From Lacticaseibacillus casei DSM 20011 = JCM 1134 = ATCC 393 (lineage in GTDB: Bacteria; Bacillota; Bacilli; Lactobacillales; Lactobacillaceae), in contig NZ_AP012544.1 of assembly GCF_000829055.1 (NCBI RefSeq), positions 868,001-932,000 on the forward strand: 64,000 nucleotides of DNA, written 5' to 3'. How positions within the stretch are numbered: the stretch's first letter is position 1; each line of letters starts with the position of its first letter. The notes below the pieces were generated by a model, which was not told the origin of the DNA, searched no databases, and worked only from the letters and a program-made list of their open reading frames with translations. Shown piece after piece: positions 13,241 to 63,515 of this stretch. The position numbers and the translations under genes were made by a program.

Positions 13241-13254
13241 GGCTGGTATGCGAT

Positions 13255-13372
13255 AACGCGCTCCCCGGCGCAGAGATCTGCGTGTAAGGACCTTGGTCGC
13301 AATGGCCTAAGTTCGGGCCATCACGCCCAGGGCCGCTTACACTCCGACCCCTAAGCGCGCCAGCTCGCGCTC
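13255..13372. repeat. structured intergenic repeat, family 1, copy 1 (118 bp)
   Basis: This has the same length as, and by hand count matches 97 of 118 positions of, 49958-50075. It folds as one long imperfect hairpin. Outer arm GGCGC pairs with GCGCC, GTGTAAG with CTTACAC, CCTTGG with CCAGGG (one G-T pair), and inner TGGCC with GGCCA. Comparison with the other copy shows five two-sided compensatory changes. It lies between rnr and smpB, with the smpB ribosome binding site 9 bases after its end. A folded RNA in the rnr-smpB transcript or a small mobile palindromic element are both possible. Confidence 0.85.
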
Positions 13373-13393
13373 ACACAAAGGAAGGGTGGTTTA

Positions 13394-13867: not shown

Positions 13868-13919
13868 TTGAATGCATGCACTAAAAAATAGGAGCTGGGT
13901 CATAATTCACAGCCACAAT

Positions 13920-13965
13920 AAAGAAGTGAACATACTCGGCAATGAGTTGTGTTCACTCTTTTTAT
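13920..13965 (+). terminator. rho-independent terminator after smpB
   Basis: AAAGAAGTGAACA (13920-13932) pairs with TGTTCACTCTTT (13950-13961), with one unpaired base, and runs into a T-rich stretch. Confidence 0.85.
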
Positions 13966-13981: not shown

Positions 13982-14204
13982 AGATATGAGTGCCAAAGCG
14001 GAGCAATCGTAGGCCAGAGGGGCTCAGCTGTGAAATTGTACTAGCCGGGTGCTCTTCCCGGCGTAGTACAAGGCCGAGCTTTGAGACTCAGCGGGCTTTG
14101 CTGAGGCTCAAAGTCGTGCCCACAGCGTTCCAGCCCCCTCTGGCCGGAGATTGCGGAGATTGCGGAGTTTGGCACGACTCGGGACTCATTGCCTAAGCTT
14201 TTTG
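13982..14204 (+). repeat. structured intergenic repeat, family 2, copy A (about 223 bp)
   Basis: The element starts AAGATATGAGTGCCAAAGCG and ends near ATTGCCTAAGCTTTTTG. A diverged copy lies inverted at 32544-32759. The outer arms pair over about 45 bases (GTGCCAAA with TTTGGCAC, GCAATC with GATTGC, GGCCAGAGGGG with CCCCTCTGGCC). Inside are stem GCTGTG/CACAGC and two hairpins: TTGTACTA-CCGGG with CCCGG-TAGTACAA, and CTTTGAGACTCAGC with GCTGAGGCTCAAAG. This copy has a 9-bp tandem duplication (GATTGCGGA twice, 14149-14166) that copy B lacks. It fills most of the 490-base gap between smpB and the GH13 gene. Confidence 0.88.
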
Positions 14205-26232: not shown

Positions 26233-26265
26233 CGGCTGAGATTTGCGGCAGAGACACAATGCACT

Positions 26266-26315
26266 AAACAAATAGACATCAGAGATGCGTTTCCTTCTCT
26301 GATGTCTATTTGTTT
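26266..26315. terminator. bidirectional terminator, perfect 20-bp stem
   Basis: 26266-26285 (AAACAAATAGACATCAGAGA) and 26296-26315 are perfect reverse complements around a 10-base loop. It lies between two converging genes, the GNAT gene (plus) and the LURP-one-related gene (minus). Confidence 0.92.
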
Positions 26316-26339
26316 GAGGAGCTTTTTTAAACCCAGACG

Positions 26340-32451: not shown

Positions 32452-32543
32452 TATGACAGGACAGCACAGCACAGTTTCTAAATTAAATTGATACTGAGCC
32501 ATAATTTTGTCTGAGCGTTCACAGTTTAGCGAATTCCAAAGGT

Positions 32544-32759
32544 CAAAGAAGTTTAGGCAATAAGCTCCGAGCCGTGCCAAACTCCGCAATCTCCGGCCAG
32601 CTGGGGATGGAACGCTGTGGGCACGACTTTGAACCCGCAAAAACCGCGGTTTCAAAGCTCGTCCTTGTTGTAGGCGGGGCAAAGACCGCCCCACCAACAA
32701 CAATTCCACGGCTGATCCCCATCTGGCCTACGATTGCTACGCTTTGGCACTAATATCTT
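32544..32759 (-). repeat. structured intergenic repeat, family 2, copy B (about 216 bp, inverted)
   Basis: Read on the minus strand it aligns along its length with 13982-14204. The closing stem is conserved (GTGCCAAA with TTTGGCAC, GCAATC with GATTGC, GGCCAG with CTGGCC). One stem position changes as a pair: GGGGAT/ATCCCC here, GGGGCT/AGCCCC in copy A. The two side hairpins have different sequences but still pair: TTGTTGT-GGGGC with GCCCC-ACAACAA, and CTTTGAAACC with GGGTTCAAAG. The strand-specific segment GTCGTGCCCACAGCGTTCCA is identical in both. It lies between two converging genes. Confidence 0.88.
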
Positions 32760-32791
32760 AAAAACTCCAACCAAATTAACCTTGTGGAATA

Positions 32792-32830
32792 AAAAACGAA
32801 CGCATTCCGAAATTGGATACGTTCGTTTTT
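32792..32830. terminator. bidirectional terminator
   Basis: AAAAACGAACG (32792-32802) pairs with CGTTCGTTTTT (32820-32830) and the inner bases GCATTCC/GGAT extend it. It lies just before the end of the minus-strand exonuclease gene. Confidence 0.88.
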
Positions 32831-32877
32831 ATGTTCGGCTAAAAATTATGATCTTCATTCAGATTTTGGCCTATTCA

Positions 32878-49880: not shown

Positions 49881-49957
49881 CACTTGCTATTATCACGACT
49901 TCTGTCGAAAAAGCAAGCTTATTTTTCTGCGGGAAGCCGCCTTGGCACCGTGACCTA

Positions 49958-50075
49958 AACGCGTTCTCTGGCCCAGAAGTCTGCGTGTAAGGACCTCAGT
50001 CGCAAAGGCCTAAGCCCGGGCCATCACGCCTGAGGCCGCTTACACTCTGACTTCTAACCGGGCCAGTTCACGCTC
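49958..50075. repeat. structured intergenic repeat, family 1, copy 2 (118 bp)
   Basis: Same length and direction as 13255-13372, 21 differences, no indels. Stem pairs stay intact through paired changes. For example TGGCCC/GGGCCA here corresponds to CGGCGC/GCGCCA in copy 1, and CCTCAG/CTGAGG here to CCTTGG/CCAGGG there. It fills most of the 320-base divergent gap between the TetR-controlled exporter operon and cdaA, ending about 40 bp before the cdaA -10 box. This copy pairs slightly better than copy 1 (three extra Watson-Crick pairs). Confidence 0.85.
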
Positions 50076-62254: not shown

Positions 62255-63515
62255 GCGCGTTTTAAAATCAAGTTAGCCACTTTTATTACAAATTTGGGAC
62301 AATAAAAAACATCAAGAACAGATATCCTGTATCATTGAAGTTCCAACACAAACAATGAAAGAGGTATTGTCCTGATGCATGAACAGGATATCACACGTCG
62401 TCAACCAGGTCATCATTTGTCTCAAATGGAACGCGGTAGAATTGCAGAACTTTACGCCACCGGCACCTCCAAACGCGAAATTGCTGCCAAAATTGGCGTC
62501 TGCCATCAAACCATCAATAATGAGATTGACCGAGGGACTGTCAAGCAGGCTAAGCGCATTAATGGCAAACTAATCTATCATACGGAATATAGTCCTGAAG
62601 CTGCTCAGACGCGCTATGAGACCGCACGTCTGAATTGTCATAGGCCGGATAAATTCGCCGCTACAAGCCACTTCCTGGCCTGGTACGTTAATCAGGCCAA
62701 GACTGAACACTGGTCGCCTGATGCAGCCGTTGGCGCCGCACGGCGAGCCAAGCTATTCACCCCTGAGGAGATGGTGTGCACAACCACTTTATATCGCTAC
62801 ATCGATGATCAACGCTTAGAAATTCGGAACATCGATCTCGTGGAGAAGGCAAATCGGCGGACCAAGCAACACAAGAGCACTAAGCATAAGCGCCTAGCCG
62901 GCCGCAGTATTGAGGAGCGTCCTAAGGCTGTCGAACGCCGCAAGCAGTTCGGACATTGGGAGATGGATACCGTTGTCGGGAAACGCAATGGCCGTGAGAG
63001 CGTCATCCTTAGCCTGATTGAGCGGAAGACTCGTTGCCAACTTCTCCGACTGATCGACGGCCGAGACTCGGACTCTGTGGAGTTTGCGTTACGAGAAATC
63101 AAGCTTGAGTGGGGTGACTGTCTGCGCACGATTACCGCAGACAATGGCCCGGAGTTCTCGACTCTGGATAAGGCCTTTGAGGACACAGATACAGACATCT
63201 TCTACGCGCATTCATACACCTCATGCGATCGCGGCTCCAACGAGGCCCACAATCGCATGATTAGACGTGACTACCCAAAAGGCGAGTCGCTGGATGATGT
63301 TAGTCCCAGCCAGGTGCTGGCTACCCAAGACCGTCTTAACGGGCTTCCCCGGAGAAAGCTAGACTACCGTGGCCCCCAGGAGTGTTTTGAGACCGAAGTG
63401 CGCCGGACTCGGCGTTCAGCACAACACGTAAGCTAAACAATGAACAACTCATAAGATAACAGGCTGTTCTTGGGAGTGTCTCAAAACCCCGGCTAACTTG
63501 TTCTTGCAATTTGGG
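62255..63515 (+). mobile_element. IS30-family insertion sequence in comGF (copy 2, complete)
   Basis: About 1261 bp. Its ends share inverted segments: AAGTTAGCC, then TTGGGACA or TTGAGACA, then AAGAACAG (right end read on the other strand). It is flanked by the 14-bp direct repeat GCAAAGTTTCAAGC (62241-62254 and 63516-63529). It carries one transposase gene in the same direction as comG. IS30 elements usually duplicate 2-3 bp, so 14 bp is unusual; the exact ends are uncertain by 2-5 bases because the outermost inverted repeats are imperfect. Confidence 0.9.
62375..63436 (+). CDS. IS30-family transposase
   Basis: 353 residues, full length. N-terminal helix-turn-helix (LSQMERGRIAELYATGTSKR and IAAKIGVCHQTINNEIDRG), then the DDE core: Asp in HWEMDTVVG, Asp in TADNGPEF, Glu in GSNEAHNRMIR. 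No frameshift, so it may be active. The ATG follows GAAAGAGG. It is diverged from the copy at 3-617. Confidence 0.95.
   Translation: MHEQDITRRQPGHHLSQMERGRIAELYATGTSKREIAAKIGVCHQTINNEIDRGTVKQAKRINGKLIYHTEYSPEAAQTRYETARLNCHRPDKFAATSHFLAWYVNQAKTEHWSPDAAVGAARRAKLFTPEEMVCTTTLYRYIDDQRLEIRNIDLVEKANRRTKQHKSTKHKRLAGRSIEERPKAVERRKQFGHWEMDTVVGKRNGRESVILSLIERKTRCQLLRLIDGRDSDSVEFALREIKLEWGDCLRTITADNGPEFSTLDKAFEDTDTDIFYAHSYTSCDRGSNEAHNRMIRRDYPKGESLDDVSPSQVLATQDRLNGLPRRKLDYRGPQECFETEVRRTRRSAQHVS

Follow-up and report, generated by a model that had tools for sequence, protein, structure and literature searches.

The branched repeat found in two inverted copies in the window (the whole stretch of 64,000 nucleotides analysed, from Lacticaseibacillus casei ATCC 393) is probably a non-autonomous, palindromic, non-coding mobile DNA of Lactobacillaceae, recognised as a folded single strand by an enzyme acting in trans. 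The folded strand, with its junction bases and an unpaired T, would be the recognition fold for this enzyme, and the enzyme would spread the element. A terminator carried by the element would make landing at gene ends cheap or tolerable for the host. According to PMC8266576, TnpA-REP and IS200/IS605 transposases recognise irregular hairpins.

Anatomy of the element

Copy 1 lies at 13982-14204 (plus strand) and copy 2 at 32544-32759 (minus strand). A previous reading made from the sequence only (the sequence-only reading) had described two inverted copies with a common closing stem and two internal hairpins, together with paired rewriting of hairpin 1, of hairpin 2 and of the closing stem (GGGGCT to GGGGAT), and both descriptions are borne out in the sequence. 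Copy 1 is intergenic, with smpB (SmpB, PF01668) on one side and a gene of the alpha-amylase family on the other; copy 2 has convergent genes as its neighbours, one encoding an exonuclease-type protein (RNase_T) and the other an ABC-2 transporter. RNA folding gives z scores of -5.87 for copy 1 and -6.72 for copy 2, neither being reached by any of 200 shuffles, and DNA folding of copy 1 gives a z score of -9.14 against shuffles.

The full unit exceeds the element as first described, adding a terminator-like hairpin upstream and, in some copies, imperfect terminal repeats GAGGCTGRGYCATAATT. On the plus strand, copy 1 has a left terminal repeat at 13891..13907 (GGAGCTGGGTCATAATT, two mismatches to GAGGCTGRGYCATAATT; genome 881891-881907), which recurs in several other copies. 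A terminator-like hairpin with a T-run (13923..13963) follows directly after smpB, 5' of the copy, and then comes the structured element (13990..14175), with the outer stem GTGCCAAA/TTTGGCAC, the internal loop CGGA/GGAG and a three-way-junction core. The core (locus L001, 14020..14136; genome 882020-882136) is matched by covariance model R1 at E 1.8e-27. Hairpin 1 (14036..14071) has a one-base bulge where most family members have a T.T mismatch, and hairpin 2 (14072..14120) has a basal GGC/GCC and CGA/TCG helix. The 3' arm of copy 1 carries a small GATTGCGGA duplication. On the minus strand, copy 2 has a degenerate left terminal repeat, identified by eye (32842..32860, ..GATCATAATT..), an upstream terminator-like hairpin (32791..32830), the structured element (32574..32750) with its core (32604..32719, or 1559-1674 of locus L013; R1, E 2.1e-28) and a right terminal repeat (32490..32506; genome 900490-900506).

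Across the family, the core folds into a three-way junction about 110 nt long, or about 190 nt with the outer stem. A basal stem GGGCT/AGCCC leads through the internal loop CA/GTTCC into a second stem, GNNGTG/CACNNC, which bears hairpin 1 and an extended hairpin 2 starting with GGCCGA/TCG-T-GCC. The T.T mismatch within hairpin 1 is present in 120 of 141 distinct sequences, and conservation reaches 96-100% in unpaired columns such as CA and GTTCC; the column mean is 0.83 where bases are unpaired and 0.75 where they pair. In Lacticaseibacillus, an outer stem with the CGGA/GGAG internal loop closes the element, and a good part of the rewriting inside the genus is a wholesale swap among a few core types. 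In some cores CTCTAGCTTCGCGGTCGCC stands where others have GTTCC; this alternative 3' module is common to several copies. Loci L039, L040, L329, L332 and L335 lack both hairpins. Where cores are neighbours within 1500 bp, 36 of 39 distinct pairs are head-to-head, three point in the same direction and none is tail-to-tail. Head-to-head pairs are frequent in the other genera sampled, and the copies read in the source genome are solo.

The window has other repeats as well. A second, different hairpin-rich repeat, with closing arms GTGTAAG...CTTACAC, is found at 13241-13375 and 49950-50070 (82% identity over 118 nt), one copy being between rnr and smpB. A direct repeat near both window ends (1-300 and 62811-63110) is 78% identical.

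Copy number and host range

In the source genome that holds the window (G000, 2.95 Mb), a DNA search returns 48 matching pieces, which reduce to 40 loci, or about 40 copies; 40 of 50 first-look candidates were scored, and further copies are possible. Three more degenerate copies, without the two hairpins, lie beyond these 40. Locus L025 is without outer arms and was dropped, so that several counts below use 39 of the 40 loci.

A covariance model from homologous loci, which had been proposed as a check, was built from 23 cores of several genera (R1). The model has a one-column slip in one bulge, and pair counts use the intended or corrected structure instead. R1 matches 89 of 301 Lactobacillaceae genomes and 14 of 40 genera, often with at least 12 copies per genome, the best 9-13 candidates per genome being scored in such multi-genome searches. 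The family, order and class scans had stricter filters, with which weak matches are lost. In the order sample 11 of 295 genomes match, all of them Lactobacillaceae, and in the class sample the single match among 398 genomes is G000 itself. A pattern search of genome contigs finds at least 119 matching stretches; the cores taken from it are those of named lactobacilli and others that pass a regular expression, among the matches listed. Closely similar cores are present in a contig of L. chiayiensis and in plasmids of L. paracasei.

Six of 72,556 plasmid records carry the element, and all six are typed as mobilizable; a copy from genome G176 used as query has no match in the plasmid records. The element was not found in the phage records searched. 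A pattern scan gave 14 viral matches, which were judged by eye to be chance because none shows the core. The statement of the sequence-only reading that no named family fits agrees with Rfam, which has no match in the window at the gathering threshold and, for five loci, none to the core at E<=5. No earlier description of the element was found in the open-access literature that was searched.

Slots compared across sister genomes

The comparison of empty and occupied sites suggested in the sequence-only reading was made mainly with the sister genome G009, whose 22 copies were set against 39 of G000. Twelve of the 22 are in slots that are also occupied in G000, and the other 10 are in no slot of a G000 copy (these include L055 and L325, whose G000 partners lie in other slots). 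Of the 12 shared slots, five have the same core, five a different core in the same orientation, and two are inverted, one of these (L322) being judged from a single flank. Thus seven of the 12 hold another core or an inverted one. In the slot of copy 1, G009 has near-identical flanks around a different core, G028 an inverted, shortened copy, and G027 none. The slot of copy 2 holds an inverted element in G009, a mere remnant in G028, and no element in G027 or G022. The elements move, and some slots are stable, five of 12 keeping the same core. At two shared slots, L320/L023 and L321/L012, flank identity between G009 and G000 is 99.9-100%, compared with about 93-97% at the remaining shared slots; this suggests that recent transfer between the two species may have occurred there.

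At one slot of the window (26233..26339, between convergent genes, no strand assigned), a native terminator was replaced. Neither G000 nor the more distant G028 has an element there, and one native terminator is common to both; G009 lacks this terminator and has in its place the element together with its own hairpin. The left junction at the replaced slot lies at AGCT, which is also found in the tail of the element, and this could mean illegitimate recombination rather than transposition. At the slot of L055, occupied in G009, the unoccupied G000 site has a different terminator hairpin, as judged by eye with no outgroup.

The sequence-only reading preferred a functional RNA and gave a REP- or MITE-like mobile element as the alternative. 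The alternative fits better, given species-specific insertions, re-occupied or inverted slots, terminal repeats, the target duplications of a single genome and carriage on plasmids typed as mobilizable.

Terminators and gene ends

A terminator-like hairpin is present upstream of 27 of 39 copies, at a median distance of 41 nt; as controls, shuffles have one in 3 of 195 cases and the regions downstream in 3 of 39. The spacing between terminator and element is 32-47 nt in 24 of the 27; the other 12 copies failed the strict terminator test. With genes called as greedy ORFs, the flanking genes of the 39 G000 loci are oriented +- at 20, ++ at 11, -- at seven and -+ at one, the last being a spurious ORF over smpB and really ++. 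The element is usually at gene ends in Lacticaseibacillus, and its orientation relative to the genes is not fixed. Under a fixed rule applied to three slots, exactly one forward terminator was counted in 14 of 14 slot/genome regions, whether the element is present or absent; terminators in the reverse direction number 0, 1 or 2 in the same intergenic regions.

A bolder reading joins the fold to this choice of site. It proposes a new system of folded-single-strand transposition, in which a non-Y1 enzyme would read the junction with its flipped T and deliver the element preferentially into terminator hairpins, so exchanging the native terminator. We consider this unlikely.

Terminal repeats and candidate enzymes

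The terminal repeats GAGGCTGRGYCATAATT are kept in some G000 copies, where six units of 364-390 bp are bounded by GGCTGRRTCATAATT repeats. Matches to the terminus in G000 at two mismatches or fewer number 16, and all are at element copies. In G241, the terminal repeats CTAAAGGTTGAAAG have 76 matches at one mismatch or fewer, against one for a reversed-pattern control. Exact, AT-rich target duplications of 7-8 bp (for example TTCATAAA and GAATTGAA) flank seven of 13 units in G241, against one of 240 mismatched flank pairings. They were not found at the other six G241 units, and none was seen by eye at six two-terminus copies of G000, so that G241 is the only genome in which they were found. Collapsed derivatives of 159-184 bp also exist. 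The terminal repeats differ between the genera and genomes looked at, while the fold of the core is kept in 14 genera.

Several of these features are those of a conventional MITE, mobilised by a DDE transposase that acts on its terminal repeats. The core would then be a passenger or relic, and its pairing would be kept by template correction from arm to arm rather than by selection. The G000 terminal repeats, the duplications at seven of 13 G241 units and the collapsed derivatives speak for this reading, which we regard as possible but doubtful, since the core is conserved while the termini differ among the genomes looked at. Moreover, arm-to-arm correction does not lead one to expect a conserved T.T mismatch (120/141) or near-invariant unpaired CA and GTTCC.

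The sequence-only reading had also considered that the element might match a known MITE with transposase ends, but neither an adjoining transposase nor an autonomous relative was found. Clustering of neighbour proteins at 151 loci revealed no transposase or recombinase that recurs beside copies; the largest group covers 12 loci and presumably consists of ABC transporters, judging by motif. No autonomous relative with the same termini came out of the terminus search of G000 or of inspection of G241 by eye. In locus L020 (G000:C1:2907577-2910811), a two-frame transposase gene with termini AGAACCTGTCTAGTATC lies at about 616-1475, inside the right arm of an element copy. We take this transposase to be IS5-like, and the insertion was rejected as an autonomous copy because it has its own termini.

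A Y1 transposase of the RAYT or IS200 type, acting in trans on a REP/REPIN-type element, would account for the mismatched hairpin, the inverted pairs, the gene-end location and the high copy number. Y1_Tnp is found in 83 of 301 genomes and in 35 of the 89 that bear the element (it was not found in the other 54), a co-occurrence that is weak (odds ratio 2.2, p 0.0045 with no phylogenetic correction) and agrees with such an enzyme to that extent. However, at E 1e-10 no Y1_Tnp was found in G000, G022, G027, G176 or G241, all of which carry many copies, with near-identical ones in G176 and G241, and the unit is far above REP size. An origin of this kind therefore appears very unlikely.

DNA or RNA pairing

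In a cross-genus alignment of 23 sequences, chosen and trimmed by hand, 95.3% of the paired cells do pair, against 76.4% in shuffles, and sliding the partner by 1-3 columns lowers pairing to 34.5-50.0%. Both sides have changed in 30 of 40 pairs. The covariation score is 0.504 against 0.150 in shuffles, and none of 500 shuffles reaches it. All four Watson-Crick pairs replace one another in the stems, and wobble is scarce. Among 150 cores, G-T makes up 1.98% and A-C 1.29% of paired cells (112 and 73, sense strand); in a set of 85 cores made at 80% identity the values are 2.28% (bootstrap 1.8-2.9%) and 1.08%.

RNase P RNA of the same genus, placed on its Rfam structure, has 25 G-T (8.7%) and eight A-C in 286 pairs, the comparison being made with three of 30 sequences. 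Wobble in the element is thus about four times rarer (2.0% against 8.7%). The ratio of G-T to A-C (1.5-2.1; bootstrap 1.4-3.7) is not clearly distinct from the 25:8 of RNase P, and alone it does not separate selection on DNA from selection on RNA. A stronger claim about wobble, from an RNase P control based on RNAalifold (ratio 14:1), was dropped: the control is biased by the folding program, as its antisense fold also has many G-T pairs. Wobble this low favours selection on the DNA pairing itself or else on both strands. The argument for DNA is indirect, with RNase P RNA as its sole control, and low wobble could also arise if both strands must fold as RNA.

These results bear on the functional RNA that the sequence-only reading had seen in the conserved loops and covarying stems. 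The covarying fold and the conserved unpaired segments stand; the conclusion that they mark a functional RNA is weakened by the wobble. Each copy would, on that interpretation, be a structured sRNA or part of a 3' UTR, in sense or antisense, with the fold under selection. The strength of the covariation, the conserved unpaired bases, the position at gene ends beside a terminator and the excess, though slight, of sense-strand G-T over A-C (112 vs 73) would all suit it. Against it, in addition to wobble about four-fold below that of RNase P RNA, the upstream terminator would separate the core from the transcript of the upstream gene, the orientation to genes varies and is flipped between species at some slots, and Rfam holds no relative. 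On balance, we judge a functional RNA quite unlikely.

Relation to known systems

The mobile DNA that we favor is nearest in behavior to REP and MITE families. With REP, BIME and REPIN elements and their TnpA-REP (RAYT) enzymes it shares many intergenic copies, hairpins whose stem irregularity is conserved and inverted pairs, and the model of single-strand recognition in trans resembles the mode proposed here, as far as the excerpts of PMC8266576 and PMC3733652 describe these systems. A REP, which bears a GTAG or CGTC tag, is a hairpin of 20-40 nt; the core here is by contrast a three-way junction about 110 nt long. RAYT is a Y1 enzyme, and none was found in G000. Like bacterial MITEs, the element is short, non-coding and multi-copy, with terminal inverted repeats, internally deleted derivatives and, in one genome, target duplications. 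Unlike them, it has a core fold conserved over 14 genera, with termini that vary among the genomes read and no matching autonomous element found, and it carries a terminator and has displaced a native one at one slot.

Integron attC sites and other folded single-strand recombination sites are conserved in structure beyond sequence and have extrahelical bases. The element is similar in that its fold is kept more than its sequence and in its extrahelical bases, but no cassette arrangement was noticed. Families of stem-loop repeats in intergenic regions are also known, and the excerpt of PMC2267715, in which L. johnsonii is the only lactobacillus covered, describes repeated stem-loops in a like position; the likeness is one of description only. 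The element works like a MITE or a REPIN, yet it fails the defining tests of each, because no autonomous element and no Y1 enzyme were found here and the core is too large for a REP.

If this reading is true, 14 genera of lactobacilli carry a conserved branched DNA fold, without an Rfam entry, which spreads by capturing the ends of genes. The family would show that covariation, even when strong, does not have to indicate a functional RNA. It would also offer a testable instance of transcription terminators that move, and a handle by which to seek a new mobilising enzyme.
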